A stretch of 64,000 nt of DNA. It comes from Capsaspora owczarzaki ATCC 30864. Lineage: Eukaryota; Opisthokonta; Filasterea. The position numbers and the translations under genes are program-made. The first letter of the stretch is position 1, and every line of letters begins with the position of its first letter. The stretch lies in contig NW_011887296.1 in NCBI RefSeq assembly GCF_000151315.2, positions 431,337-495,336 on the forward strand, written 5' to 3'. Below, in pieces: positions 22,701-51,338 of the stretch. The notes beneath the pieces are model-generated. The model was not told the origin of the DNA and did no database searches. It was given only the letters and a program-made list of their open reading frames with translations.

Positions 22701-24384
22701 GCCACTTGCGGCTGAGCAGCTGAGGATTGACATTGACAATGATGTTTGGCCGTTCGATGGAGTCGGGAGCCATTGCAATTGGGTTTTGGGCGGAGGCATA
22801 TCGATTGTTTCCGACGTGCGCGTCACCCGCACTAGATGCGTGGGATGTCGCCATCGGCGTAGCAGTCGAGACGTCGCTGTCATCCCAGCCAGACGTTGAC
22901 GGCTTCCACTCCAAAAGTCCCGTACCGGGAGCTCCGCCATCAGAAGGCTTCTTCTGTAAAGGACCTTGGCCCCAGCGACTTGGGGGTGCGGCAGGCTTGG
23001 GTGGCTCGGCGAGCAGCGGCGCAGTGTCGGCGGGCGTTTGGCCCCAGCGAGATGCCAGCCGCGCGGGCTCAGTTGGCGGAGGTGGTGGCGGAGGGAGCTC
23101 TGGCAGTTGCGTTGGTGGTGGTGGCGGCGGGGGTGGTTGCTGTGGTTGTGTCGATAGTAATGGCGGGGGTCGTGATGTTGGTGGGGGCGTAGGAGTTGCC
23201 GGCGTTGGAGCGGGAGCCTGGGTGAGAGGCGCAGCTGCTGTGCCTGTCAGTCTCGCGTATTCTGTTCGCCGTTTAGTCTCTACAAAAAAACAAACCAAAA
23301 ACAACAACCGAATTGAGTGAATGAATGAAGTGTTTGAGTGCGCAACTTATCGGCCTTACCAGAGCCATCCAGCTCGGCTTTGACTGGCTTGCCCATAAAG
23401 GTGCGCCCATCTATCAACGGCAGCAGTCTGGTGCATTCCCGAACGGACGGAAAGACGACACTTGCTATCCCCAGATGCCGTCCGGTCTGCGGATGGTGGT
23501 GTACTTTGGCAGTTTCCACAGAGCCCAGTTTCCGCAGCTCGTCCAAAAGGAAGGACGACTCGACATTGTCGTTCAATTCGCTCAGGAATAAGATGCGATT
23601 TGGGGCATCTCCGACAGAGTGCTCGTCAAACTGTACTCCATGCGAATGCCAGGTCAGAAAATCTGCCCCAATAGGCCGGACAACAACATCCCACCGCTAT
23701 CTGACCTTAAATCGAGGAATTGTCAAATCAAGTGTAGCGGTATACCGTGGCGGCCTGCCACGCCGGGGATCGACAACTGTAACGGGAGTGTTCTGGTTGG
23801 TTTGGAGCAAACAAAACCGAGACTCGAAGTGAACGAAACGATTTTCAATCTCTTTCAGTGTTGCTCCTATCCATCGCGTATTGCATGGACAGATAGATCG
23901 ATTGGCTAATTCCGACGACGACTGACGGCAAGGTGAGTGGAGCGTTCGGTGAGCTCTGCTCAACGGAAATGCAGATCATCAAGCCCGACGCACAACGCCG
24001 CCTGCTGTGGCGACTTCTACTCCGACTCCGACTACTACTACTACTGCTACTGCTACTGCTACTACTACAGCTGCTCAAACACCAGCAGGGGGAACGGTGC
24101 TGTGCAGACCGAGCGATGCTGCTGCTGAACCAGAACCAGCGCGCTCATACTCGAGTGCGCGGACAACCCAAGGACTTCTCCCTTCCCCACCGCCACGTCA
24201 CTCGGGTGCTTACCGTCTTTGGATCAATGCCGTCGAATCGCCGCTCGAGCTGCGCATGTCGGTCGTGCGAGAGACCCGGATCAACCAGCACCTTGAAGTC
24301 CTTTGTCGACGGTTCATTGGCAGCACCGTCTTTCAGTGCGTCCGATCCACGCGCGACCGCATCGTCCTGCGCAGATCCAGACAT
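19767..24384 (-). CDS. SET1: SET1/SETD1-type histone H3 lysine-4 methyltransferase (COMPASS catalytic subunit)
   Basis: Five exons (24214-24384, 23706-23792, 23360-23630, 20107-23279, 19767-19940) give 1,291 residues in frame. The N-terminus follows SETD1: [11 protein letters not shown] and [10 protein letters not shown] in exon 1, TVVDPRR and LTIPRFK in exon 2, then [12 protein letters not shown] and an RRM ([28 protein letters not shown]) in exon 3. A second RRM-like unit (about 352-428, [19 protein letters not shown]) follows. A long Pro/Ser-rich middle leads to the N-SET region with a WIN-type WDR5-binding motif (GSARSEGFY, about 1035). The SET domain is at about 1150-1275: [62 protein letters not shown] post-[16 protein letters not shown] ends the protein. 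The usual NHSC is NHCC here. It methylates H3K4 at active promoters together with WDR5, ASH2 and RBBP5 homologues. Confidence 0.95.
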
Positions 24385-30977: not shown

Positions 30978-31220
30978 ATGACTGGCGCGCAACTGGAGCG
31001 AGGTGGCAGTCCAACGAAGGCGCCGCCGCGCCTGACCGCTCACCCTCGCGGTTCTCGGCTGCTAACTCTTCGGGCCGCTTTCTCATCTGTTCTGCTGCTG
31101 CTGCTCGGTTTCCTCGCAATCTCTGCCGTTGGTACTAGCACTGGAGGGGTAAGTTCATGACCGTACCTTGATGGGAGAAGCCAGGCGCGAGCGGGGAGTT
31201 TGATTCCACTTTCCTCGCCT

Positions 31221-31272
<52 letters not shown>

Positions 31273-34200
31273 GAAAGATTTGGAAGCATTCATCACATTT
31301 GTGATTTTCGTTTCGGCGAACAAGCACTCACTTTCACAACCCATCATGCAATTTTGTACCTTGAATTATTGAACCATTTTGTCGCGCGATCGACTTGGCT
31401 TTGGCTGCACTCTCGATGCACAGAACCGTGAGTAACCCGAGCTTGCATCGTGATGCTAATGATAACGCTATCAATCGCGTCTCCCTTTTGACTCACTTCC
31501 CTTTCCCCCTCCCCCCGCCTCCCACAAACCATCTACAGCTCAACCCATCTTTCTGGACTCAATTTCATACACGACCTTGACGACGGATTGCAACTATCTC
31601 GACCAGTACTTTTACGGCACTCAACTCATCCACAAGAGCCGGCTCGACATTTGTGGCAACACGTTCACGGAAACGCTGTTCTACCACACCGAATGCTATG
31701 GAGCGCCAGTCTTTTCGCTGAAGACGTCTGGATACATTTATCAGACGGGCTTTGAGCTGGATGCCGGCAACTTCCAACTTGCTTTGAGCAGCCTGACAGT
31801 GAACGCCAGCTCGGCAGCTGGATTGCGTGCTGTCCAAGACTATTGCAACGTTTCTAGCGGCTACAAGCAAGTCGTCGATGTTTCCACCACGGGTTGCCCA
31901 GGTCTCGGTATTGCACCGCTTTCAGACTGCCCCATGAGGTTTGTGTCAATCTCCTCGTACGACGTAGCCACCGTCAGCCACTTGCTCCTGTCGGCCGAGC
32001 CCTTTGTTCTCGCGTCTTGCTCCCTGCCATACACGAGCTCTTCGGTTCATGGACGCGAGGCTTACACCTCGAATTATGACGTCTGCCCCTATCCGAGCGA
32101 TGGACCGTTCAACGTCTTCAAATCAATGGCCTCGTTGAAGTACGCTACTGAGGGCGATGCCGTATCTGCAACTATTCGACGTTGGTCTGGTCCTGTGGAC
32201 ATCCCGTTCGAGATCAACTGCACCGTCTCGGAGGAGGAGACCACTGCGGCTCCCGGCGACTATGTTGTTCTTTCGAGCCTCGTTCTGTCGTTTGGCAGCG
32301 GTGTTCTGTCTCAGGATGTCTCTGTGAGCTTTCCGCAAAATGCCGCCCCAGCCATGACCCGTAAATTGGTTCTTGAGTGCGCGAGCTCAGCCGCAACTGT
32401 GCATGCAGCCTCTGGGTCCTCTGAGCGCATCGAAATTGTTCTCTTCGACGATGATACCGATCTCTTCTCCTTTGCTACACCGTCGGTCAACAGTTACCCC
32501 GACCGGGCTGGATCCGTCCTTGTGGAGCGCACGCCAGCCTCGCCTGAAAGCGGCACTGTTCAGTACTACTTTGTGCTGGATGACATTGCTCCGGAGGACT
32601 TTTCCGACTCGTTCCCGCTTTCTGGCGAGATTGAGTTTGGCCCGGGACAAGAGTCATTCCTATTTGAGCTGCCGATGCCGGCGTATAACTTTGACGCACA
32701 TGCGCCCTACATTTACTCGATGCACCTCAATGCATCGGCGAACTCGGTTGGAACGCATTCTGTCCTCGAGGTATCGGTTGGTGGCGCCTATGATCCTGGC
32801 ACGCCCTACTTCCAGAACGTGGACCACCCACTCGTGCTTGGAGAGACAATTTACATCTCCAGCAGTTTCGACTCTGAGTTTAGCTTCTTTCAACCTTTTA
32901 CCTGCAAGTGGCGTCTCTCGGACGACTCCTGGACTGGCGCGCCTGCCTCTGAAACGTTCGAAGTCGTCAGCGGCATCTTCAGCTGGGAATACTCGTACAG
33001 CTCGCCTGCTGTGACATTGGTCGTTCTCCCAGCTGAAACTACTCTCTCGAAGCATTTCCAGCTAGTGCCGTTTGACTGCCTGGGCAGTTCTGTGAGCGAC
33101 GGGTCCGACGGCGTCCAAGTTGCCATCCAATATCAAGGCCTCGTGCCTTCCATTCGGCTGCTCGCTGACAACTACCAAGCATCCGTCTGGGAAGGAAGCA
33201 TCCAGGTGAATGTGGCGCTGTCCTCGGCACTTGAGGAGGATGCCACATTCCCTTGGGAAATTGTGCCTGACACAGCAGTGGCCGACGAGGATTACTCGCC
33301 TGCGAATGGCCTCATCCTTTTCAGTGCTGGATCAACTGAGGCGACTGTCGAGATCACCCTGCCACCCAACAGCTCCCCGTCGTATGGGAAGAGCTTCACC
33401 TTCCGGCTGATGACCGAGGACCCTTCGTTTGCTGTTGTTGCCATCGATCTTCCGAACGCCATGCTGGTCGAAATCTACGCGCACGATAATCCTGACGGCG
33501 AGTTTACGTTTTCCAACGTCACAGCCCAAACGATTCCGGAGGGCCAGTCATGGTCAGTCGAGCTGGTGCGTTCGGTCAACTGGACCCTTCCTGTCGAAAT
33601 CGTGTTGGACGATCATTTCCACGAGCGCCGCAAAGACTCCACTTCTGCCTCTACTACGCGGTCCAACCGTGGTCCTCGGTCAACCCGCAACGTGCCGCAG
33701 CCTGGTCGAGCGTCACGTCCAAATGGTGAACTCGAACCGACGCTTGGTCGCAAAGCATCCTTGAGAACTCGCCGTGATCGTGACGTTGTCGAAGAAGACG
33801 CTCGTCTGCAGCTGAGCCCAAACCCTGTGGTCTTTCTGCCAGGCGAAACGACAAAGACGATCACAATCACTGCGCTCGACGATGACCGGCCCGAGTGGGA
33901 CGAATACTACCCTGTCTACATGCAAACGTTCTCAATCGACACGGTAGGGGCGGCTGCCTCACCCGAGCAGGAAATTCTGGTCCTCGTGCCCGAGAATGAC
34001 GACCCCCACGGCACATTCACGATTGAGCAAGGTGTCTCAACTCCAGTCGGAACGTTCCTTGCGATCAACCTGCACCGAGACGGCCAAATGCCCTCAAACG
34101 GAGTCGGCTACAATGTCTACTATGAGATTATTCCAATGACTGCACTGCCTGGTGTGGACTACCTCGTGCCGGAGAATAATTATACGGTCTTTGACGGAAA

Positions 34201-37200
34201 CGTCTGGAGCCTTGACACGTCGATCCAAATCCAAATCCTCGACACTGGTCTGCCTGCGCAAGACAAGTTTTTCGAAGTCCGACTTTTGAGCATCGAGTGC
34301 CCATGTGTCAATCCAGTCATCTTTCCTCACATCAGCCAAGTGGCCAACTCGACAGTGGTGCGCATTGAGGCTCAAAATGGTGCCAACGGCCACTTTGCGT
34401 TTGACGATTTCTCCCCTCGCGCAATCAACGTTACGGAGGGCGGCGTTTCACTGACTGTCGTGCGTACCGATGCACTCTACGGCGCGTGCAATTTGACAAT
34501 CAGCAGCACAGGCCAAGCTTCGCTCGGCTACGACTTTACGAGCGATCCCATCCAGTTTGTGGATGGGCAGGCCACTTCCACACTGTATTTGCAGTTCATC
34601 CCGCAGATGGACCCCGTGATAACGCGAACGGCAGAGGTCTATTTGAGTGGTTCCTGCAGCGGCGCGACCCTTGACTCGACTCCCGTGACCATCATCTTCC
34701 CGGTTGCCAACAACCCGTTTGGTGTGTTTCAAATCGAACAGCGAGATTACCCGTTCGAGACGTTCGGCTCTTATGACATTGCTGTCACACGAGCATGGAC
34801 CAGTCTTGGCGCTGTGCAGATCAACTATGAAATATTTGATTCTGAGGGCGAATCGCCTTCTGACATCCAGGACAACTCTGGCGGTTCGATCACTATGGAA
34901 CCTTACCAGTCGTACGCCTACATTAGCTTTCAATACGTTGATGTCAGCGCATCCCAACCCCGCCGGACCTTTTTTGTGAACATCACCTCGATTACCAAAA
35001 CCGACGATCCCGACCCAGAACCATTGTCTGCTCCAGTGATTGGTGTTGGACTGGGCCAGTATTGGCTCGCGCCCACCGGAACTGCTGGTGGTGACTTTGT
35101 TCTGCAGCAAATTTCCCCGCTTGATCTTGTGAAGGGTGGACCGCCTCAGCCTTTCCGAGTCGACCGGCTCAACTCTGCGTCTGGCAACGTGACCGTCTAC
35201 CTGTACTTCTACTCACCTGTACCATTCATCCTGACTGACCAACTGCTGTTTGTGGATGGTGAGACCACCAAGACGGGCTATATTCAAGCGGTCGATGATG
35301 GCAGGGACTCGAACGCCGTCGCCGAGAGTCTGAGCATTGACCATATCGACGGCATCGCCACCTCGTACACGAGTGACACTCTGAATGTGACGATCGCGCG
35401 TGATGGCTTCCCCGGTGGCACCTTCTTCATTGCGCCCGTTTCGCAGAACATGACCGTTGACCGCTTGGCGCCTGTGGACCTACTCATTCTGCGAGCTGGC
35501 GACCGTGCAGGAGAGGTCAAGGTCTGGCTGAACGTAGTTGGCACTGGCGACGAGCATACCGCTGCTTTCGATACAGACTATACCCTCGCCCCCAATCCTG
35601 TGACCTTGGCCCCGTTCCAGGCCGCGGGCGTGGTCACCCTTTCCTGGCCCATTTCCGAATCACCAATGCCGTACCAAAACATTCAACTTGGCATCGTCAG
35701 TTTGACCTCCGCTGACTCGGAGCTGAGTCCCACGTACCTCGAGTCGGCCACGGCGATGCTTACCGTCCTGCCCGACGAGTATGCAAATGGTCTGTTTGCG
35801 TTCGATCTCGAGTTCGTGTCGCAAAGCGTTTCCTCGTCCGGCGACGTGACCTTCACCATCTTTCGTTCAGTCAGCACTGTGGGCGCAGTCTACGTGACGA
35901 TCCTCCCAGAGGCTGATTCGGAGTTTCCCGAGCCAGCTGTGTTTGGTGAGGATGTCATTGGCCCCGAAAACCCCATCATTGTGACCTTCGCTGATGGTCA
36001 GCAGGTCGGAGAGTTTACTGTCACTGCTGTCATGGACTCTACGCCCCAAGTCGCCAAGCGCATTCTGTTCCGAATTGCGAACGTGACGTCTGCAGACGGT
36101 TTGCTCATCAATGCCGGAATTGACTCGGACGTGTATCAAGCGACTTTGGACCTGGAGGCGCATGACTACCCGCACGGTGTGTTTGGATTCCTGGACGCGA
36201 TTGTTCATGTGGATCCTTTCAATTCAACCATCCTGACACTGACAATCAAACGTGACGGTGGTTCAATTGGCGGGGTTCGCGCTCGCGTCTCAACCGCGAC
36301 TGCGACTTTTGGCGAGCTCGCCGACCCGAACACCGACTTTGTTTCGGTCGACGGCATGCTCGTTGAGTTCGCCGACGGCCAAACGGAGGCCCAGGCGCAA
36401 ATCACGCTGCTCGAAAATCCCGAGCCGCACCCCGATTTGAACTTCCTCGTCGTGATTGACGACGTCACGCTCAAGCCCGCTCTGCCCTTTTCTGGCGCGG
36501 TACCTGAGCTAAACGAGACCGCGTCTTCGGTGCAGGTTGTGATCCGATATCACGATCTCGAGTCTGGAACCTTCCAGTTCAGTGTCACATCTGCCAGTGT
36601 GAACACTGGAAGCGGATTCTGGCTCGATATCGATCGCATTGGTGAGGACAATGGTGACGTTGTCCTGCAGATCACGCCTGATTTACTTTCTGAGCAGTAT
36701 CCGTTGGACTTGACGAACAATCTCCCCTCGTTCTTGGCGCCCATGACGGTCTCATTTGCTGATGCACAACTCAAGCAGTCCATCTACTTGTCGACGCTGT
36801 CGTCCATCGCACCATCAGTCGATTCCAGTGTGTCCCTCATCCTGACCGTGCTATCGCACCAGTACGACAATGCAGCGATCGGTACCAATTCGATTTTCAA
36901 ATTCACGGTCCTCGCTCACGACGACCCGCATGGAACGATTGGGTTCAACCCCTCCGAGTACACAGGCCCTGAAGGCACGATGGTGGCAGTGCGCCTCGAG
37001 CGGTTTGGCGGCCTCATCGGTGCCGTGACCGCGTCGTTTACCGTCTCCTTCGACGGCGCAAGCGCGGCTGATATCCAAGTCAGTCCAGCGACTTCTGTGA
37101 CTTTTGCAGACGGAGAAAGTGAACAGTTCATCAACGTGACCATCGTGGACGACCACATCCCCGAAGAACTCGAAGTGCTCCAGATCACCATCTCTGACTT

Positions 37201-40200
37201 GGTGGTGGACCTGGAGAGCACTGGCGCCACTCCGCACTATGGGCAGCTCTCGAGCCAGATCACCATCCCCGACAACGACCAGGGCGAATACGGGACTGTA
37301 TTCTTTGCGTCAGAGCTCGTTCTCGCTGAAGAAGGAGCCTCAGCTGTCGTTACAGTCACTCGCGTGAACGGTTCCTATGGTGCGGTCGCAGTGGCCCTCA
37401 GTGCGTCAGGCAATGCCGAATCGCCCAGTGACTACACTTTATCGTCGTATCTGGTGTCGTTTGCTGATGGGGAAGTCTCCCAGAATGTGACCATCGACAT
37501 TATCGCTGATGGCATCCCAGAGCTGCAAGAGTCCATTTATCTCGAACTGCAAGACCCAGAAGGTGGCGTTGCCATTGGGTCGCCTTCCTCCATGGAGGTG
37601 CGCATCGCTGCCAACGACAACGCCTACGGCACCATCTCCTTTGCTGCCGATTCTGAGACTGTGACCGTCGTCGCGTCCGAAACAGACTCGGTTCAGGTGA
37701 CGTTGAACGTGACGAGGACTGGCGGCACGATTGGCAAGGTTCGTGTGAGATACAGTACAGTCTCAGGAGGCGTTGCGGGTGTTGGTCCCGCCTCGAGCGG
37801 TGTCGACTATACTGCGATTACTTCGAACGAATTTGTCATGCTGGCCGGCGCCTCGACGGCTCAGATTACAGTCACAATCCTCGCCAACAACCTTCCGACG
37901 TTGGATGTTGGCTTCCTTGTGTTCATTGAGCACGTGGAGATTGAAGAAGATGTGATTATCGTGTTTCGACGTGGCAACGACAAACCAGACATTGGTTCAC
38001 GCAATGCCTCCGCGATTACGATTGCTGCGCACAACGACCCGAACGGTGTGTTTGAGTTTGCGACGACTGGCGCGATCGTTCAGTCGACCAGCGGCACGTA
38101 CACGCTCATCGTGCGACGCACGGGTGGCACAATTGGCACTGCATCGCTGAGCGCTACGGCGTCGGTGTCTGGCCAACAGTATCCGATTGATTTGGTCCAG
38201 GATGCGTCGCTCGCGTCGCCTCTGGCTGTGTCGTTTGGCGACGGTAGCTCGCAGGCATCTGCAATCATCACGATTGTGAACAACGGGCTCCCTCGTGTCA
38301 CGTCGACGGCGGTCATCACTCTGTCCATTGGCAGCGCCGGTGCTTACGGCCGTCTTGGCACGAACACGACGTTCACACTGACCATCCCTGCCCACAACAA
38401 CCCGCACGGTATCGTGTCGTTCGGTGCGACGTCGCAATCTGTTTCGTTGGTCTCGTCGACATCTTCGGCAGTGACTGTGCAGCTCAATGTGACGCGTACT
38501 GGCGGTAGCATCGGAGCACTGACGGTCCTGTACAACACTGTTTCTGGTGGTGTTTCCGGTGTCGCTTCGGCCACTGCTGGAACGGACTACGTTGCTGTCG
38601 CTTCAGGCTCGCTCTCGCTTGCGGATGGTGTTTCCAGCGGCAGCATTGTGATTACTCTGCCTGCCAACAGCATTCCTACCTTGGACGTTGGTTTCCAGGT
38701 GCTGTTGTCGTCTGTTTCGCTGACGTCGCTTATCGGCACTGGCGCAGTCCCCACGCTCGGCTCGGGTGCTGCTGCTCAAGGCAACATTACGATTGCTGCG
38801 CACAACGACCCGAACGGCGTGTTTGAGTTTGCCACGACTGGCGCGATTGTGCAGTCGACCAGCGAGTCCTACACGCTCGTTGTGCGACGCACCGGTGGCA
38901 CGATTGGCACTGCATCGCTGAGTGCTACAGCTTCGGTGTCTGGCCAACAGTATCCGATTGACTTGGTTTTGGATGCATCGCTCGCGTCGCCATTGTCTGT
39001 GACGTTCGGCGATGGTAGCTCGCAAGCATCCACGTTCATCACGATTCTGAACAATGGGCTCCCTCGCGTCACTTCCACGGCGGTCATTACCCTGTCCATC
39101 GGCAGCGCCGGCGCTTATGCCCGTCTTGGTACCAACACGACGTTCACGCTGACCATCCCTGCTCATAACAATCCACACGGTGCTGTTTCTTTCGCCGCCG
39201 GATCTCAGGCGTTGACGGTGGCCCCGTTGGCTGGCGCAGCTTCTTCCATTCAGCTCAACCTGACTCGTACTGGTGGCAGCATTGGCACTCTCGTTGTGAC
39301 CTACCAAACGTCTGCTGGAGGTGTTGCTGGTATTGAGGCAGCGACAGCCGGTGAGGACTTTACTCCCATTGTCGCTGCGACTGTGACCATTCCTGCTGGC
39401 AGTGCTTCTGCGTTTGTGATGGTGACCATCCCCTCCAACGTTGCTCCTGAGCTCGACCGCGGTTTCCAGGTCTTGTTGACGAATGTCGCTGTTTCTGACC
39501 TTACGAACACTGGCGCTACACCATCTCTCGGCAGTGGTGCTGCATCGATGAGCAACGTGACTCTTTCTGCGCAGAACGATCCCAACGGCGTGTTTGAGTT
39601 TGCTGTGACATCGGTTGTCGCAGATTCGACCAGTGGATCCTATCTCCTGGTGGTGCATCGCTCTGCTGGCACAGTTGGAGCGGCAGTGCTCACTGGCACA
39701 GCTTCCGTTTCCGGACAGCAGTATCCTCTTGACTTGGAGCAAGACGTTTCGCTCACTACGCCTCTCGTCTTCAATTTTGCGGACGGCGCAACGACTGCGT
39801 CTGCTAGCATTGTGATTGTCAACAATGGACAGCCTCGCGTGTCGTCTACCGCTGTCCTCACATTGGCCATTACGAGTGCTGGGTCGTACGCACGCTTGGG
39901 TGACAACACGACTGTCTTGTTCACCATCCCTGCCCACAACAACCCGCACGGCACAGTGTCGTTCGGTGCGACGTCGCAATCTGTTTCGGTGGCCTCTTCG
40001 ACATCTTCGGCTGTGACTGTTCAGCTGAACGTGACGCGCACTGGCGGTAGCATTGGAGCGTTGACGGTCCTGTACAACACTGTTTCTGGCGGTGTTTCCG
40101 GCGTTACTTCTGCGACGGCTGGAACAGATTACGTTGCCGTCGCTTCAGGCTCGCTCTCGCTTGCGGACGGTGTTTCCAGCGGCAGCATTGTGATTACTCT

Positions 40201-43200
40201 TCCTGCTAACAGCATTCCTACCTTGGACGTTGGTTTCCGAGTGTTGTTGTCGTCCGTTTCGCTCACGTCGCTTGTCGGCACTGGAGCAGTCCCCACGCTC
40301 GGCTTGGGTGCTGCCGCTCAAGGCAACATTACGATTGCTGCGCACAACGACCCGAACGGTGTGTTTGAGTTTGCGACGACTGGCGCGATCGTTCAGTCGA
40401 CCAGCGGCACGTACACGCTCATCGTGCGACGCACGGGTGGCACAATTGGCACTGCATCGCTGAGCGCTACGGCGTCGGTGTCTGGCCAACAGTATCCGAT
40501 TGATTTGGTCCAGGATGCGTCGCTCGCGTCGCCTCTGGCTGTGTCGTTTGGCGACGGTAGCTCGCAGGCATCTGCAATCATCACGATTGTGAACAACGGG
40601 CTCCCTCGTGTCACGTCGACGGCGGTCATCACTCTGTCCATTGGCAGCGCCGGTGCTTACGGCCGTCTTGGCACGAACACGACGTTCACACTGACCATCC
40701 CTGCCCACAACAACCCGCACGGTATCGTGTCGTTCGGTGCGACGTCGCAATCTGTTTCGGTGGTCTCGTCGACATCTTCGGCAGTGACGGTGCAGCTCAA
40801 TGTGACGCGTACTGGCGGTAGCATCGGAGCACTGACGGTCCTGTACAACACTGTTTCTGGTGGTGTTTCCGGTGTCGCTTCGGCCACTGCTGGAACGGAC
40901 TACGTTGCCGTCCCTTCAGGCTCGCTCTCGCTTGCGGATGGTGTTTCCAGCGGCAGCATTGTGATTACTCTGCCTGCCAACAGCATTCCTACCTTGGACG
41001 TTGGTTTCCAGGTGCTGTTGTCGTCTGTTTCGCTGACGTCGCTTATCGGCACTGGCGCAGTCCCCACGCTCGGCTCGGGTGCTGCTGCTCAAGGCAACAT
41101 TACGATTGCTGCGCACAACGACCCGAACGGCGTGTTTGAGTTTGCCACGACTGGCGCGATTGTGCAGTCGACCAGCGAGTCCTACACGCTCGTTGTGCGA
41201 CGCACCGGTGGCACGATTGGCACTGCATCGCTGAGTGCTACAGCTTCGGTGTCTGGCCAACAGTATCCGATTGACTTGGTTTTGGATGCATCGCTCGCGT
41301 CGCCATTGTCTGTGACGTTCGGCGATGGTAGCTCGCAAGCATCCACGTTCATCACGATTCTGAACAATGGGCTCCCTCGCGTCACTTCCACGGCGGTCAT
41401 TACCCTGTCCATCGGCAGCGCCGGCGCTTATGCCCGTCTTGGTACCAACACGACGTTCACGCTGACCATCCCTGCTCACGACAACCCCTTCGGAACTGTT
41501 TCGTTCTCCTCGGATAGCCAAGCTTTGTCGCTTCAGCAGTCGGCCTTTTTGCTGACCTTGAACATCACGCGCCAAGGCGGCACGTTTGGCGACATTGATC
41601 TCGTCTTCTCCACTCGCAACCCAACCAATGCAGGGCTCTTACCTGCGGTCCCTTCGGTCGATTACCAACCTTTGTCGTCCGTTACTCTTCGCCTCGTGAG
41701 CGGCCAGTCTCGCTCGTTTGTTAGCGTGATGATCTTGGCGGACACCACTCCAAGCTTTGACGAAGCTTTCGAGGTTGTGCTGGTCAGCGTTTCCACCCCT
41801 AGCCAGTCGGCTGGTGCGGTGCCCTCGGTTGGCGTGAACAATGTTGCGCTGGTCACGCTGCTCAGCCATCACTATCCCTCGGGTGTGTTTGCCGTTGCAA
41901 CTCCCAACCTTTTTGGCATTCAGAGCGGCGAATCCATTCCCGCCAGCTTTGTTCAGCAAGTTCAATCTGGCAGTGTCGTTGTGGTTGTTCAGCGCGGGGC
42001 TGGTGCACTGGACGAGGCTGTCGTTTCATGGACCTTGTCGCCTCCTTCATCGCGCCTCTCGCCGACTTCCGGAGCCTTGGTGTTTGCTGCAGGACAGCGG
42101 GAAGCCCAGGCTGTGCTGTCGATTGTCGCCTCGCCCGTTCCAGCCGTCTCATCGACTATCGATTTCAGCATCTTTTCCGTCACTCCTGCGGTTACCTCGT
42201 TGTTGAACACTTCTGCAGCTCTGTCGCGAGTTGTGATTGTCGGAAATGGCGATCCGTTTGGTGTGTTTACGCCCCAAGATGCGCGTGTGACTGTCGCCAC
42301 GGGTGCTCAGACCGTCACCGTGGTGATCAATCGATCGCAAGGCGCTCTTGAACCGATCGAAGTCCGCTATAGTACTGCTGTCATCCCGAATGTCGATCGA
42401 CGCGAGATTGCCTTGCGACCCGCGCTTGCTGATGTTGATTTTGTCCCCGTGACCAACCAAAAGTTGACGTTTGCTGCCGGTCAAACCAGTGCCAGCGTTC
42501 AGATTGCACTGCTTGGATCATCTCGCCCGCACTTGGCTCTGGGCTTCAAAGTGGTTTTGGTCTCGGCTCAGCGTGTTGGCGAGCTGTCGAGCACTGTCCC
42601 CACGCCAGGCGGCATGCTGTCATCGTGGGACTCGCTTACGTCTCCCAGGATTTCAGCCGACCCTGCGACGATGGTCGTCATCCCCGCATCGAATGCACCT
42701 ACCGGATCTTTTGTGTTTGACACCTCCAGCACTTCCGTGCAAGTCTCGAACACCTCATCGTCCGTGTCTGTTCGTGTTTCTCGTTTGGGTGGCTCGACTG
42801 GGTCTGTCACGCTCGGCGTCAACGCGAGCAGCTTTGATGCTCGACCCAGTGTCGATTTCAAGCTCATCACAACAACGTTGACCTTCGCTGCTGGTGACAC
42901 CAGCGCCAATGCTACGATTTCGATCTTGGCTGCTGCTTTCCCCAAGGCTGCTCAGACCATTACCCTGAAACTGAGCGTGCTCACGACGATGGTAGATGGC
43001 TCCGTTGTGGTTTTGCCAGATCCGGTGGCGTTGTTGGGCTCCCCGTCCACCTCGTTGCTGCTCCTCAGCCAGTATGGACGACCTGGCGTTTGTGAGAGCC
43101 AGACTGTTGGCAACTATTCTTGGCCAGAGACGCTTGCTGGAGGCTCGGCGATCGTGCCTTGCGAGTTTGGTTTTGTCGGGAATGCGTCACGCCAGTGTCT

Positions 43201-45403
43201 CAGCGGCCAGTTGGCGCTGTGGGCAACAGCCGACGTGTCCGGCTGTCGAGACGTCCAGTCGTTGCTCAGCGACCTCCTGTCCGTTCCTGTCACGGAAGAC
43301 TCTTTGCAACTTCTCGCCGAAAACGCCAACACCATGTCGACCCAAGTGGGCGCATTGGACGAAGGCGCACTGGGATCGCTTGCGACCTTGCTCTCGGAGA
43401 TGAGCGCTGTCGGTGCTTCTGCGGGTTGGCCTGGACAGTCTAGCTACAACATGATGAGCGTGTTTGATAATCTGCTCGGCAGTTCGAGTGCTGGCCTGGC
43501 GGCGTACCAAGGAGGCAACAGCGGGGCGAACAATCTTGCCAACGTTCTGACAAACTTTGGATACTCCTTGCTCGGACCAAGCCCTACAGCTGGCACGACT
43601 GTGACGCGCTCTGGCGAAAACGCCATCATCTCGGCGAGTGCCGTGAGTGTGGGCTCGGACGCCAACTTTACGACTTCATCTGGTGGCAACTTCTCCCTGC
43701 CCGGGTCTCTTTTCGACATGCTCAACGGCCAGGAAGTGCAGGGATTGTTCGCGGTCAGCTTTGCTCTCTACCAAACATCCGACCTGTTCCCCGCAGTCAA
43801 CCAAACCAACTCGGCAGTCTCGAATGTGATCTCGGCCTCCGTTCAGGGCCGCGAAGTGTACAACCTGACTGAACCCGTCACGTTTGTGATTAGCCATGCA
43901 CCTCTCCCCACTCCACCGACTTGCACATTCTACAACTTTGCTACTCAGCAATGGGATGCTGAGGGCTGCGTGACGTCAAGACTATCGAGCACCTCGACGC
44001 AGTGCCAGTGTTACCATCTGACCAACTTTGCTCTCTTCTTCAGTCTTGGCGACGATGAAATTGACTCGATCAGCGCAGACATTCTCTCGAACATTACGTA
44101 CATTGGCTGTGCGCTCTCCATCTTTGGCACGGTGGTGACCTTCATGACGTTTGTTCTGCTCAAGACCCTGCGCACGTTTGCCATGAAGTTGGTCATGCAT
44201 CTGTGCGTGGCCGTGTTTGGCATCAACGTGGTCTTCCTTGCGGGTGCCACTCAGACCGGCAACCAGGACCAGTGCAAGGCGACAGGAATCTTCTTGCACT
44301 TCTTCTTGCTGTGCTCGTTCTGTTGGATGCTGTCGCTTGGCGTCAACTTGTACCTGGGTATTGTGCGTCTCAACACTGACACGTACATTTACTACAAGCA
44401 CATGTTGATTGCTTCTTATGGTGTACCCACCCTCATCGTTGTCATCACCATGGCGGTGGACATTGACAATTATGGCGGCACAGAGGCTTGCTGGATCCAA
44501 GACCAGAACGCATTGATCGGTGCCTTCTACGTTCCCGTGCTGCTCGTCATCGCGGCCAACATTTTCATGTTTATCAAGATTGTCATTGCCTTCCAGCGTG
44601 CCGCCAAGGATCGCCGCATTCTCGGCGCGGAGGAGCGCAACAATTTGCGCGTCCTCGTGACCATCTTCCTGATGTTGGGCATTACCTGGGTCTTTGGTGT
44701 TTTGGCGATCGACTCTGCCACGACGGCGCTTCAGTACCTGTTTGTCATCTTCAACAGTTTCCAGGGCTTCTTTATCTTTGTGTTTTACTGTCTCAACCAG
44801 CGCGTGTTGCAAGCGTACAGGGCAACTCTTGGAGGTCGCTTCCCGTTCTCGTACATTTCCTCGCTCGCTGCTCGCACATCGCAAACGAGTGCCGGCTCGA
44901 GCTCGGCCGCGACCGCGGCAAGCTCTGTCGGCGAACGTCCGGCATCGTCCACCTCATCGTACTTCTCTTCCCTGCCGACGACCTCCAAAGAGGCTGGGTA
45001 TGCAAGCGGGACATTCTCGAGTACCACTGACAGTATGCACGATGGAGGCGAGTCGGGCACCCAAAGCCACTCGTCTGGCGGCCGCGGTAGCAAGGAGGCG
45101 CGCCGCGTAGCGACTCTTCCAGGCTCCGCCACTGGCACCGCGCTTGACAATAGCTTTGTTCGTCAAAGTGAGGCTGCGTTCACTGGCCTCCGGCGCCAAC
45201 TGGATGCCGATCGTGCTGCTTCCCCTTCGCGTCTCCCGGCAAGCCTACCTACCACAGCGCACCCCTCCACGGCGATCGAAATGCAACAGATTGTTGCTCC
45301 TCGCCCCGTTGCTGTGCAACCGGCTGTCTCTACGCGACCCGCACGAACACTCTCTCCCCGTGATTTGAAGCGACTCGATACCATTGACTTTTCCAATGTC
45401 TAG
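30978..45403 (+). CDS. Giant Calx-beta adhesion GPCR (ADGRV1/VLGR1-like architecture)
   Basis: Three coding exons: 30978-31148 (signal anchor or signal peptide, LLTLRAAFSSVLLLLLGFLA), a 4-nt exon 31424-31427 and one giant exon 31539-45403, totalling 4,679 residues in frame. The ectodomain (about 250-3900) is a tandem array of roughly 25-29 Calx-beta repeats, joined by linkers of the form AH(N/D)-x-P-x-G-x-F and rich in N-glycosylation sequons. Then come an HRM-type domain (about 3909-3962; WPETLAGGSAIVPCEFGFVG, ASRQC), a GAIN region and a GPS (CTFYNF...QQWDAEGC...CQCYHLTNF) with the cleavable HL|T at about 4219/4220. A class B/adhesion 7TM unit follows (about 4240-4483; ITWVFGVLAI in TM6, FNSFQGFFIFVFYCL in TM7). 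The cytoplasmic tail of about 196 residues is Ser-rich and ends DFSNV, a class I PDZ ligand. Likely a surface adhesion and mechanosensing receptor. Orthology to ADGRV1, as opposed to convergence of domains, is not proven. Confidence 0.93.
31225..31271 (+). repeat. 47-base poly-T tract in the first GPCR intron
   Basis: Uninterrupted run of 47 T in the intron 31149-31423, the longest homopolymer in the window. It is on the sense strand, far from the acceptor, so it is not simply the polypyrimidine tract. Confidence 0.95.
31424..31427 (+). other. Putative 4-nt microexon (AACC) of the adhesion GPCR
   Basis: Sequence CACAG|AACC|GTGAGT has a consensus acceptor and donor around four bases. Exon 1 ends in phase 0 (GGAGGG|GTAAGT), while the giant exon begins with two bases of a codon (CTACAG|CT CAA CCC), so direct joining shifts frame. 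Four extra bases restore it, giving Gly-Asn-Pro-Gln. Inferred, not proven. Confidence 0.55.
38015..39165 (+). repeat. 1,151-bp near-identical internal duplication, copy 1 (Calx-beta repeats)
   Basis: Matches 40328-41478 at a constant offset of 2,313 bp. By eye I count only four substitutions across 1,151 bp. It encodes about 3.2 Calx-beta repeats starting at the AHNDPNGVFEF linker. Sequence diverges sharply at both ends. Confidence 0.9.
40328..41478 (+). repeat. 1,151-bp near-identical internal duplication, copy 2 (Calx-beta repeats)
   Basis: Second copy of the block at 38015. The offset of 2,313 bp equals 771 codons, three pairs of Calx-beta repeats, so the reading frame and repeat register are kept. 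The intervening block 39166-40327 is related but more diverged. Confidence 0.9.
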
Positions 45404-45778
45404 AGTGCTTTTGTTTTTGTGATTTTTCTCTCTTTGTTGTTTGATTTGAACCCTTTGTATTTCTCTCAGGACTTTTTTTTTTCGTCTTCGATGTTTTTGT
45501 GGTGGTTGAATTTGATATTGTTTTGTCTGAGTGTATTTGTTTCGTGTTTGCTGTTTGCATTTTTTGCTTTGCTTTGTTCGTTTGTTGCACCGTTGTGCGC
45601 ATCCATACACTGGATGCAATACATTGTTTTGCAAATCTGCTCTTGTTCGTGTCCCTACGCCTTCCCCTTCATGTGCATTGTGACTCGGTAAGCTTTGTAA
45701 GCTTTGTCCCATCACCCAGTTTGGTTTGTTGCAACGATCAGTCCTGTTCTACGTTCTGTGTTGGATTCCCAGTTTGAG
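45404..45778 (+). other. Spacer between adhesion GPCR and SLC41 gene
   Basis: 375 bp, T-rich, holding the GPCR 3' UTR and the SLC41 promoter. A donor-like GTAAGC (45687) and an acceptor-like CCCAG (45768) suggest a possible 5' UTR intron. No coding exon in phase was found. Confidence 0.5.
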
Positions 45779-47047
45779 ATGCGCCGGTCTGTGTACGGAC
45801 CCACTGCCGCCGCGCCGTCGGATCGAGCGTCACTCTCGTCGCTTGAACGCGCTCTGTTGGAGCTGCGCGATGTCTGGCGTCGCGGGATTGACCGACGGCT
45901 GCTGAGCGAAGTGCTTCCGACACTGCTCATGTCTGGCTGCGGGCTGATGCTCTCCGGCGTGACCCTGAGCTTCCTCATGCAATCCAGCGAGGCGTTCAAG
46001 GCCGTGCCTGCGCTCGTCGTGCTGCTGCCCGTGCTGCTCGGGCTCAAGTGCTGCCTCGAGATGACCCTCGCGAGCCGACTCTCAACCGCCTTTCATACGC
46101 AGCTGCTCAGCGACGCCGGCCCGAAAGACCAGCGCCGCAGCGTCATCCGAGCCAATCTCGGCGTCGTCATCATCCAGGCCACCTGCGTTGCGCTGCTCGC
46201 GACGGCGTTCGCGGCTGGAATCACCTCGTTCGAGTCGGAGGAAGGATGGGTGTCCCTGCATCATCTGGTCGTGCTGCTCTCGTCCGCCGTGTTAACGTCG
46301 TGCATTGCGGCGCTGCTGCTGGGCATGTTCACAGCGTACGTTGTGATGGAAAGCAGTCGGCGCAACGTCGATCCAGACAACATTGCCGGTCCGCTGGTGA
46401 CGGGCATGGGCGACTTGCTCGCTGTCGTCCTGCTGGGCTTGACGAGCACAGTGTGCTTTTACTTTCCGGTGGCAACAACCATTCTCACGGCGCTTGCGAT
46501 TGCGATGATGCCATACTGCTTCCGCATGGCCTCGGCACATCGACCAACCTTTGTCGTCTTGAAAACGGGCTGGCCCCCGATTCTCGCCAACTTTGTCCTG
46601 AGTCTGATTGCAGGAATCTTCCTTGAAGGTGACGTCGACGAGCTCATGGGAGGCCTGGCCACCCTCGTCCCTGTCATCAACGGGACGGGCGGAAACATTG
46701 CTGGCATTTACGCGAGTCGCTTTGCCACGTCGTTGCACAAGGGCAAACGCGGCGGGCACGAAACCACCGGCTCGACACTGGCCCTCACCACTGTGCCTGC
46801 TCATCTCGCGTTTCTGTTGATTCTGCGTGTGTCTCCCGTCGATACCACGAGCGTGTCGTTGCCGATCGCCCTCGCCTACTTGCTGGCTGGTACCATCCAA
46901 GTCCTGGTGTTGCTGCGCCTCGGCAAGTACCTTGTGAAGCGTGCCTGGGCCCGAGATCTCGATCCTGACAACCATGTTGTTCCGTATCTTACGGCGCTGA
47001 GCGATCTGATCGGGACGACGTCCATTGTTTTGCTATCCAAGTTGTAG
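45779..47047 (+). CDS. SLC41/MgtE-type divalent cation (Mg2+) transporter
   Basis: Single exon, 422 residues from the ATG at 45779. It contains two related membrane units, each with the SLC41/MgtE signature near its acidic start: DPDNIAGPLVTGMGDLLAVV in the first and LDPDNHVVPYLTALSDLIGT in the second. About ten hydrophobic segments are seen (LPTLLMSGCGLMLSGVTLSF, VPALVVLLPVLLGLKC, and others), plus the ATLVPVINGTGGNIAG loop with conserved Asn/Gly. Animal SLC41A1-3 are about 510 residues. This is a compact version lacking long tails. Likely moves Mg2+ across the plasma or an internal membrane. The frame is open upstream to 45704 without an ATG, so a 5' extension by splicing is possible but not in phase with the best donor. 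Confidence 0.9.
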   Translation: MRRSVYGPTAAAPSDRASLSSLERALLELRDVWRRGIDRRLLSEVLPTLLMSGCGLMLSGVTLSFLMQSSEAFKAVPALVVLLPVLLGLKCCLEMTLASRLSTAFHTQLLSDAGPKDQRRSVIRANLGVVIIQATCVALLATAFAAGITSFESEEGWVSLHHLVVLLSSAVLTSCIAALLLGMFTAYVVMESSRRNVDPDNIAGPLVTGMGDLLAVVLLGLTSTVCFYFPVATTILTALAIAMMPYCFRMASAHRPTFVVLKTGWPPILANFVLSLIAGIFLEGDVDELMGGLATLVPVINGTGGNIAGIYASRFATSLHKGKRGGHETTGSTLALTTVPAHLAFLLILRVSPVDTTSVSLPIALAYLLAGTIQVLVLLRLGKYLVKRAWARDLDPDNHVVPYLTALSDLIGTTSIVLLSKL

Positions 47048-48988: not shown

Positions 48989-49502
48989 TTCGAACCGGAA
49001 AGACTACTAAGAAAGTCTGAGGATCAGTCTGCGAACGGCAAATCTAAGCAAGTTCAGGATCAAAGTAAAGTAAAGCCAAGTCGATGATGGCAACACCTCG
49101 AATCGCAGATTTGCTGAACGCTCAAAGTACTCCAAAGGAACCCAAAGAAAAAGCAAGAGTGTGATGGGTGGAACTTGATTTGGAAAGCAAAATCGGGTTC
49201 TGAGCAACTCGGCGTGAACACGTCCATCTTCTTAACTTTGTGTTTTGGTGACACATCCAACAACCCCTTCGTCCCAGGGTCGTGGCGACTTCGGGGTACT
49301 CAAGTTCAAAGCGCAATTCGGACGGCCGCGAGTTTTGACTGCCCGACTGCTGCCTCGTTGCTTCATAATTCACAGGACGAAACACATGCAACGACAATGC
49401 TGAACGCAGAGTGCGAGGTCACAGCTCACCCAAACTTGCTTTGAGCTTGTTTTTGATCTGCAGTTCTCAGTCCCACTTTTGCACAACAAACAAAAGGGGT
49501 GG
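48989..49502. other. Divergent spacer between small membrane protein and TauE/SafE gene
   Basis: 514 bp between opposite start codons. Balanced composition and free of long homopolymers. No exon or RNA gene recognised. Confidence 0.55.
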
Positions 49503-51338
49503 ATGCGATCGTCGTCCTCTGCTCTGACTTCCATGCTTAGGATGACGACGACGACGACGACAATGATGCTGATGAAGATGATAGTGCTGATGCTCTGTGT
49601 TGGATTGGCGACTTGCGCCTCGAGGGCTCGAGCGGAGCAATTCGGCGCAGCGGAGCATTCTGAGCAGCAGCATTTCGCAGCAGCACCGCGGTTTGCCGAG
49701 GCACCAGCAGAAGGAGCTCCAGCGGCGGCGAACAGCGTCCTGCTGCTGCGTGAACTGCGTCTGAAGGGCAACCCAAGCCCGTTGGAGCGGCGGATGGATG
49801 GCGGCCGGCTGAGCGACCAGGAGGACAGTGACCGGCAAATGCGAAAACGATCTACAACCCAACAACCAGCGCAGCCAGAGCGCGACCCCGACGCAGACGC
49901 AGCCGCAGACGCAGCCGCAGCCGATGTGGGTGCGCAGACAGGCAAAGCGTGGATGGCGCTTGCGTCTGGAAACGGAACTGCGCCAGAGGACGAGCGGACG
50001 ATTGCCGATCTGCCCGACTGGGCGGTCGTGCTGTGCATCGGCGTGTCGGCGTTTCTGTCGGGCGTCGCAATGGGCCTCACGAGCTTTGGCTCGGCCATTG
50101 TGTTCCATCTGTGCTGGCAGCTCTTCTTGCTGTTCTCTGGCATTGCGCACGACGACTTGAGCCAGCTGGTCGGGCTGCTCGCCATCATGGACTGGGGCAC
50201 CGTCCCGCCCTTGCTCTACATTTGCTGGAAGGACGTCGACGCCACCATCCTTGGGTATCTTGTCGTGCCCATGGCCGTGACCACTGCGCTTGGATCCTAC
50301 ATTCTCGTGACCACGCCTCCAGACATCCTCAAGCTCATTCTGGGCATCATTTTCATTGTGTTTGCGACTTGGCGCATTCTGCTCGAGGTGTTTCAATCTC
50401 CCCGCGGCATGGCCTGGCTCTCTCGCATGCACCTGGAAACAAGTACATTGCAACGGAGTCTTGCACGATGCTTGCTCGTGCTGTTCCCGCCACCGTCCTT
50501 GCTTACGGTTGCCGCGCCGGCCGACGAGTTTGGCCAGCACGAGATGGCCGTCGTTGTGCCCCTGGATGGCACTGCTGCCGTCGGTGAACCACCAGTTACA
50601 ACAAAGCAGCCTCAACTCGATGCACAAGATGACCAAGCACACCTCGTGTGCGCCACCCAGGACGAAATCGACGAGAAGGTTGACTCTATCCAAAGTCTCC
50701 AGCCATACGAATCCGACGAACAACTCGATGTGGAGCCCGGAGTGCAGACTGACTTGGACGAGCCGTCCGAGCCACCAGCAGCACGCCGTGCCAACAACAC
50801 CCGATGTGGCTGCTATCCGTACTGGCCCAGAACAAATCTGTCCACTGGACGCAAGATCTTCACGGCCATCGCGGGTGTTACAAGCGGCTTTTTGCGCGGT
50901 TTGTTTGGCGTTGGTGGGCCCCCACTCATGGTCTATGTTTCTCTGTCGGGACTGGATAAGAAACCCCTCCGTGCCACGGTGACTGCAACCTCGATGGTTA
51001 CCCTCCCCATCCTGACGGGATATCTTCTCATTTACGAAGGTCGGTTGAAATCGGACGAGTGGCCGCGATACTTGACGGCCGTCTGCTGCTCCTGTGTCGG
51101 CCTATTGATTGGCAACTTGCTGTTCAAAAAGTTCAACACCGCCACAGTGTTGCGCTTCATCCTCGTCCTTCTCGTTGTGGCTGCGATGACGATGATGAGC
51201 TTGCCGATGATTCCCACGATCGTCTTGCTTGGCCTGCTAGCAACAGGACTCGTGACGCTCTGGCTGCACAACAAATGGCGCCAACGACAGCGCGAGCGCG
51301 CGGAGGCTGAGATTTCATTCGAGTTGTTGAGAGATTGA
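49503..51338 (+). CDS. TauE/SafE-family membrane transporter (putative sulfite/organosulfonate exporter)
   Basis: Single exon, 611 residues. A signal-like segment (MKMIVLMLCVGLATC) precedes an Ala/Glu-rich luminal or extracellular stretch of about 120 residues. Then come two half-units of about four helices each, the TauE/SafE fold. The first half has GVAMGLTSFGSAIVFHLCW, and the second half the hallmark GFLRGLFGVGGPPLMVYVSL. The halves are separated by an acidic cytoplasmic loop of about 110 residues. The tail is short and basic (KWRQRQRERAEAE). Related proteins occur in bacteria, plants and protists, with roles in sulfite, taurine or sulfoacetate export, and in plants some are linked to protein trafficking. 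Substrate here is unknown. A start 10 or 13 codons later is possible, because the N-terminus is Met/Thr-rich. Confidence 0.88.
   Translation: MRSSSSALTSMLRMTTTTTTMMLMKMIVLMLCVGLATCASRARAEQFGAAEHSEQQHFAAAPRFAEAPAEGAPAAANSVLLLRELRLKGNPSPLERRMDGGRLSDQEDSDRQMRKRSTTQQPAQPERDPDADAAADAAAADVGAQTGKAWMALASGNGTAPEDERTIADLPDWAVVLCIGVSAFLSGVAMGLTSFGSAIVFHLCWQLFLLFSGIAHDDLSQLVGLLAIMDWGTVPPLLYICWKDVDATILGYLVVPMAVTTALGSYILVTTPPDILKLILGIIFIVFATWRILLEVFQSPRGMAWLSRMHLETSTLQRSLARCLLVLFPPPSLLTVAAPADEFGQHEMAVVVPLDGTAAVGEPPVTTKQPQLDAQDDQAHLVCATQDEIDEKVDSIQSLQPYESDEQLDVEPGVQTDLDEPSEPPAARRANNTRCGCYPYWPRTNLSTGRKIFTAIAGVTSGFLRGLFGVGGPPLMVYVSLSGLDKKPLRATVTATSMVTLPILTGYLLIYEGRLKSDEWPRYLTAVCCSCVGLLIGNLLFKKFNTATVLRFILVLLVVAAMTMMSLPMIPTIVLLGLLATGLVTLWLHNKWRQRQRERAEAEISFELLRD

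Follow-up and report, generated by a model that had tools for sequence, protein, structure and literature searches.

The adhesion receptor gene and its coding frame

The 64-kb window analysed here (bases 431,337-495,336 of contig 5 in the Capsaspora owczarzaki assembly, which holds 27.46 Mb in 29 contigs) carries a gene for a giant receptor on its forward strand. We consider it likely that the product is a Calx-beta adhesion G-protein-coupled receptor (GPCR) that works by the force- or ligand-gated scheme proposed below. A single stop-to-stop frame at 31466-45403 runs for 4,645 codons without interruption, and its translation, P0001, is used for residue numbering. A Pfam scan of P0001 returned, in order, Calx-beta (E = 3.5e-75, with 11 stretches over the cut-off), HRM (0.015), GPS (1.5e-10) and 7tm_2, a seven-transmembrane (7TM) family (1.7e-43). 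The open frame with its domains in order led us to reject two genes or a pseudogene; an exon made of two genes was one of two outcomes that the initial annotation had named as fatal to its proposal. An Rfam search of the whole window gave 0 matches.

The hydrophobic stretch that follows the ATG at 30978 reads as a signal peptide encoded in an upstream exon. Phases were computed for three candidate donors of this exon (31132, 31149 and 31153). The GTAAGT at 31149 is strong, yet its phase does not fit the best acceptor (31538/31539). The donors at 31132 and 31153 are in phase with that acceptor; 31153 looks weak and would give 4,679 residues. Because the exon 1 donor is not fixed, that length is one of several possible and the splice junction is unproven. 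Of the 4,679-residue protein with a signal segment proposed initially, the hydrophobic start stands and the exact length does not, since 31153 is one of three donors.

The GAIN-7TM core is of adhesion type

P0001 contains a GAIN domain with a GPS, the feature by which adhesion GPCRs (class B2) are recognised. The best PDB matches of its 7TM domain were ADGRG6, G2, L3 and D1 (1e-51 to 2e-47), and the best secretin-type chain came in at 2.8e-13. By score rather than by tree, the 7TM domain stands closer to adhesion receptors than to those of secretin type. This agrees with the class B adhesion call made initially, for which a tree placing the 7TM outside adhesion GPCRs was the other fatal outcome named. 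A secretin-type or cAMP-type receptor was ruled out by the same ranking; Dicty_CAR (4.1e-8, over its cut-off) and Ocular_alb (0.028) matched the same stretch far more weakly than 7tm_2 did. The predicted HL/T cleavage site that had been placed at L4219/T4220 under the earlier splice model is L4185/T4186 of P0001.

The domain between the array and GAIN is labelled HRM-like here, by homology. It is 53% identical (30/57) to the HRM of a paralog, L003 (L-numbers such as L001, L003, L004, L006 and L010-L044 label the other stretches of the Capsaspora genome that were compared). HormR-GAIN structures also matched the predicted HRM-GAIN model in structure comparison. The HRM expected from the initial annotation is thus present with structural backing, but its sequence match is weak and falls under the Pfam cut-off. 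The L003 HRM itself scored 27.8 bits in the genome search versus 23.1 when its core was scanned.

S-x-V is the class I PDZ-ligand pattern, and the receptor ends in a match to it. Two paralogs end likewise (L003 in DSRV, L001 in ETRV), and 9 of the final 20 residues are common to the receptor and L003. Four other 7tm_2 frames were read to their C-termini (SVHV, SEAV, SIHM, MTSR), and these depart from the PDZ pattern. PDZ domains gave 17 matches in the Capsaspora genome. One lies in the window itself, at 4055-4276 on the reverse strand (E = 9.5e-15), about 27 kb from the receptor, and the same frame continues into a candidate MPP/p55-type SH3 domain identified by eye. The vicinity of this protein to a receptor with a PDZ-type tail is probably coincidence.

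The Calx-beta array

To delimit the array, 25 repeats were anchored by motif and 21 of them were made into a self-profile, which those 21 match by construction. The profile recovered all 25 anchored repeats, together with residues 218-319 (independent E-value 9e-7) and 596-675 (2e-7) of P0001, and gave a further 1.3-bit match at 350-397. Against shuffled copies, 0 of 200 produced any reported match at E<=10. The resulting count agrees with the 25-29 repeats estimated initially. A model of a Calx-beta dimer reached a predicted local distance difference test (pLDDT) value of 91.6. Its top Foldseek match was NCX1 CBD12, with a TM-score of 0.45 by query; individual Calx-beta domains from integrin beta4 and NCX gave TM-scores of about 0.8 by target.

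Two of the four differences between the near-identical blocks inside the array alter an amino acid (L to V and A to P), and the spacing of the blocks equals three 771-bp two-repeat units. By their sequence, the blocks are a recent duplication or conversion, and the length of the array may therefore differ between strains. The acidic calcium-loop motif of Calx-beta, DDxxPE, occurs at 4 sites in the 3,867-residue N-terminal part. It stands at the aligned loop in only 2 of 21 repeats (r678 and r1823), which suggests that the majority of repeats probably bind calcium poorly at this site. Coordinates of all features are collected in Table 1.

Table 1. Features of the receptor gene and its nearest paralog. 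Positions count from the first base of the 64-kb window, except for L003, and residues are those of P0001.
Feature	Position	Strand	Remarks
Exon 1, coding part, with ATG and signal peptide	30978..31152	+	Hydrophobic LLLLLGFLAISAV; 3' end uncertain
Large exon, remainder of receptor	31539..45403	+	One open frame; stop codon 45401-45403; acceptor CTACAG ends at 31538
Calx-beta array	32117..43066	+	27 supported repeats and about 2 cryptic; Pfam, self-profile, dimer model
Duplicated block, copy 1	38015..39165	+	1,151 bp inside the array; 4 mismatches to copy 2
Duplicated block, copy 2	40328..41478	+	2,313 bp downstream of copy 1
HRM, below Pfam cut-off	43082..43246	+	16.1 and 19.5 bits vs 26.2
GAIN domain, GPS at its end (43916-44035)	43247..44035	+	
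Predicted autoproteolysis site L4185/T4186 and tethered-agonist start TNFALFFSL	44018..44023	+	CQCYHL/TNFALFF
Class B 7TM domain	44084..44776	+	7tm_2 E = 1.7e-43; top PDB matches adhesion GPCRs; seven long helices in model
C-terminal FSNV, class I PDZ-ligand pattern	45389..45400	+	Sequence; pattern match
Paralog L003	contig 4, 2,090,739		Nearest relative of the receptor core found

Paralogous cores and Calx-beta domains elsewhere in the genome

A genome search with 7tm_2 gave 10 matches at 8 loci once neighbouring pieces were merged. Among the open frames of these loci, only that of the window receptor is represented in the 51 Calx-beta matches of the genome. The closest core found, L003, is 84% identical to the receptor over GPS-7TM, 60% over GAIN and 69% over the aligned core as a whole. 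Its N-terminus, unlike that of the receptor, is a Ser/Ala-rich repeat without Calx-beta; it had no Pfam match at E<=0.1, and none of the 51 Calx-beta matches lies on its contig. With the low-complexity filter on, BLAST of the receptor's N-terminal part against those of L003 and L001 returned nothing at E<=1. Together, L003 and L044 (contig 4, about 2,086,000-2,091,900) show a repeat stretch of ~1,100 residues (41% Ser, 35% Ala) ahead of HRM-GAIN-7TM.

The next cores by GPS-7TM identity are L001 (55%), which bears furin-like Cys-rich repeats, L004 (41%), which bears receptor-L domains, and L006 (31%). Their frames had no Calx-beta match, the comparison of L006 being confined to its open frame. 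We relied on identities alone, because a five-row tree of the cores had no supported fork. As read from these sequences, the receptor core appears to be one of several in Capsaspora whose N-termini are exchangeable.

Besides those of the window, 28 Calx-beta stretches (several from one gene) were collected, and 9 of these open reading frames (ORFs) were scanned for other domains. Three (L014, L018 and L033) carry a tyrosine-kinase domain within the stretch scanned. The remainder comprise one with LCAT and cNMP-binding domains, one with EGF repeats, two with ephrin-receptor-like repeats and two with no other family over the cut-off. L020, L037, L010 and L012 are among these non-kinase ORFs. Repeat r2315 of the receptor is 35% identical to L014 over 131 columns. 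Judged by these matches, Calx-beta is a recurrent ectodomain in the Capsaspora genome.

The published record

Krishnan et al. (2012) list CASP_EFW45600.1, with five Calx-beta domains, as a 'putative orthologue to VLGR1', and a figure legend in that paper counts seven Adhesion receptors in Capsaspora (PMC3251606). Both that protein and our receptor come from the same species and are adhesion receptors with Calx-beta, GPS and 7TM. The same source gives N-termini of 312-4202 aa across the adhesion receptors of S. rosetta and C. owczarzaki, and roughly 4,240 residues precede the first transmembrane helix of our receptor, close to that printed maximum. The receptor is almost certainly GenBank EFW45600.1, an identity that we infer. 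The gene is therefore not new and was most likely published in 2012. The adhesion GPCR outside animals, with a VLGR1-like domain set in a compact unicellular genome, that the initial annotation described was correct and had been published earlier.

What this analysis adds is a sister receptor without Calx-beta, and with it a VLGR1 orthology that looks weaker than printed, because the core is nearest to that paralog, the 7TM domain shows no special affinity to human ADGRV1, Pfam returned neither EPTP nor LamG, and Calx-beta also occurs on Capsaspora kinases.

Orthology or domain exchange

Two histories could have produced this receptor. A recurrent Calx-beta ectodomain may have joined a filasterean HRM-GAIN-7TM core and later been lengthened by internal duplication, to which we give about an even chance. 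The core is nearest to L003, the frames of L003, L001, L004 and L006 are all without a Calx-beta match, the domain recurs on tyrosine kinases in three of the nine scanned ORFs, and the array contains a recent internal duplication. By parsimony, a single Calx-beta gain on the receptor branch costs less than independent losses in L003, L001, L004 and L006, although this count is unpolarised, as is the direction of change without other filastereans. Independent assembly also has to contend with the lack of a supported fork in the five-row tree and with a sequence comparison to ADGRV1 that covers the receptor core. Alternatively, the whole receptor would be a true ADGRV/VLGR1 orthologue, descended from a Calx-beta adhesion GPCR of the filasterean-choanoflagellate-animal ancestor, with L003 having lost Calx-beta. 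We regard this as possible but somewhat doubtful. It is the view in print, from Calx-beta in Krishnan et al. (2012) and from N-terminal similarity in the passage on filastereans of a 2025 eLife paper (PMC12716839), and the order of Calx-beta array, GPS and 7TM, with a PDZ-type C-terminus, is the same. Likeness of Calx-beta N-termini can, however, come from a shared domain, and GPS-7TM is 84% identical to a paralog that lacks Calx-beta. According to the text of the 2012 paper, VLGR1 is basal to the metazoan sequences in the tree, and the Capsaspora sequences cluster with representative metazoan receptors (PMC3251606).

The 7TM comparison bears on both histories. In searches against PDB chains, the receptor core scored 63.1 bits to ADGRV1 (9fte), versus 141 to ADGRL3 and 134.6 to ADGRD1 (both 7TM-only) and 47.5 to ADGRG5; the ADGRG2/G6, L and D1 chains were all better matches of its 7TM than ADGRV1 was. 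The paralogs L003, L004 and L006 gave 56.3, 62.5 and 27.5 bits to the same ADGRV1 chain, which ranked 26th to 28th in the searches with the receptor, L003, L006 and L004 and was not among the best 60 PDB matches of the L001 core. Since the score of L004, the receptor-L paralog, equals that of the receptor and other adhesion chains score higher, the receptor 7TM appears, by bit score rather than by tree, to hold no ADGRV1-specific signal. ADGRV1 was also not among the best 50 matches in either of two structure comparisons, which is no evidence of a difference. If ADGRV1 is a long branch, as it may be, a low score is compatible with closer kinship, and ADGRG5 scored lower still. Animal ADGRV1 carries EPTP and LamG/pentaxin. 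Both were absent from the 8 Pfam families found in P0001 at E<=1, a scan that strongly diverged copies could escape, and the search for EAR/EPTP repeats that the initial annotation had proposed accordingly came back empty at that threshold. An artefact of the gene model, either two genes or an array made over-long by misassembly of near-identical repeats, is very unlikely. Two 1,151-bp blocks with just 4 differing sites are of the type that assemblers can misplace, but 4,645 codons are open with their domains ordered, and the frames of L003 and L001 hold HRM, GPS and 7TM with no stop between. On sequence evidence, we judge domain swapping to be no less likely than descent from VLGR1, with a weak preference for the swap. 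Between the premetazoan origin and the independent assembly that were offered initially, the data lean to independent assembly or stay undecided, as the nearest relative found for the core lacks Calx-beta and ADGRV1 is not a preferred match of the 7TM. A further reading we would put a shade below an even call. Giant Calx-beta adhesion GPCRs like VLGR1 would then have arisen by assembly on two or more occasions, in Capsaspora by joining a Calx-beta ectodomain of its receptor-kinase type to a filasterean HRM-GAIN-7TM core whose sister bears a Ser/Ala stalk, and the printed VLGR1 orthology would be wrong for the filasterean signalling half.

Several points weigh against our overall picture of the Capsaspora receptor and its working. 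The 2025 eLife paper describes ADGRV orthologs as clear in choanoflagellates and filastereans (PMC12716839). CASP_EFW45600.1 is printed with five Calx-beta domains, versus 27-29 in the receptor (11 Pfam stretches). The HRM (PF02793) scored 16.1 bits (E = 0.015) in the full frame and 19.5 bits when the 607-aa core was scanned alone, and it is not among the 2 PF02793 matches of the genome, which fall in the genes of L001 (31.2 bits) and L003 (27.8). The HRM-GAIN-7TM model, from a five-row alignment, reached a pLDDT of 58.6, a modest confidence. A 2013 paper describes compact mature aggregates whose cells are without filopodia (PMC3870316). Finally, two homology arms for coYki and a 26-nt piece of one of them had no match in this assembly. 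We take this as an assembly gap, because the first 100 nt of a printed coWts arm (PMC10959527) match at 100/100 and both printed GAPDH quantitative PCR primers (PMC9170242) match exactly at one locus; a very close sister strain may also account for it. The coWts and GAPDH matches identify the species as Capsaspora owczarzaki.

A working scheme for the receptor

In animal adhesion GPCRs, GAIN cleaves itself, the complex is retained, and a tethered agonist becomes exposed once the N-terminal fragment is released or distorted. By analogy, we infer cleavage, gating by force or ligand, G-protein coupling, PDZ binding and location for the Capsaspora receptor as follows. The Calx-beta array, about 3,650 residues, would act as a cell-surface tether or reach domain and attach to matrix or to an adjacent cell, with filopodia or aggregates as plausible sites. 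GAIN would cleave itself at HL/T, with the two halves staying joined. A pull on the long N-terminal fragment, or binding to it, would expose the agonist TNFALFF, which would activate the 7TM domain and then a G protein, and the SNV tail may dock on a PDZ scaffold. The ectodomain would have come to a filasterean core by a swap or been retained from an ADGRV-like ancestor. A long tether suits cell-to-cell reach. Filopodial contacts are reported as the mode of adhesion in Capsaspora aggregates.

VLGR1, a hearing receptor of animals, is an Usher-syndrome gene, and a filasterean Calx-beta receptor serves to date it before animals. Should the core prove to be related to a paralog whose N-terminus differs, the dating would depend on a domain that was shuffled and not on orthology. 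With a sister receptor that lacks Calx-beta, orthology of the filasterean receptor to VLGR1 becomes a question to test rather than a settled fact. Capsaspora is described as transfectable and gene-editable (PMC6001378, PMC9170242, PMC10959527), so direct tests can address both how the tethered agonist works and what the array does.

Neighbouring genes

Directly downstream of the receptor lies an MgtE-type divalent cation transporter (45704-47047, forward strand; 1.2e-33). Elsewhere the window holds RRN3 (10361-12445) and a SET-domain protein (19951-23307) on the reverse strand, a TauE-like protein (49479-51338) on the forward strand and a DEAD-box helicase (62458-63972) on the reverse strand.

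Comparison with known receptors

A Calx-beta array, a GPS, a class B2 7TM domain and a C-terminal PDZ-type motif are common to the receptor and animal ADGRV1 (VLGR1/GPR98). The array in the N-terminal fragment and the FSNV terminus, the latter as a pattern only, agree with the ADGRV subfamily. To our knowledge, animal ADGRV1 is without an HRM, a domain that is weak in the Capsaspora receptor. The receptor kinases L014, L018 and L033 likewise bear Calx-beta ectodomain repeats and have a tyrosine kinase in place of GAIN-7TM. HRM is given for 6 filasterean adhesion receptors in the 2025 eLife paper, where the 7TM of choanoflagellate subfamily theta groups with ADGRV at 83% bootstrap (PMC12716839). 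Theta is likewise an ADGRV-like adhesion receptor outside animals, set beside ours by description only. At the C-terminus, V1 binds harmonin and whirlin through its PDZ-binding motif, as stated in a review (PMC13197933).
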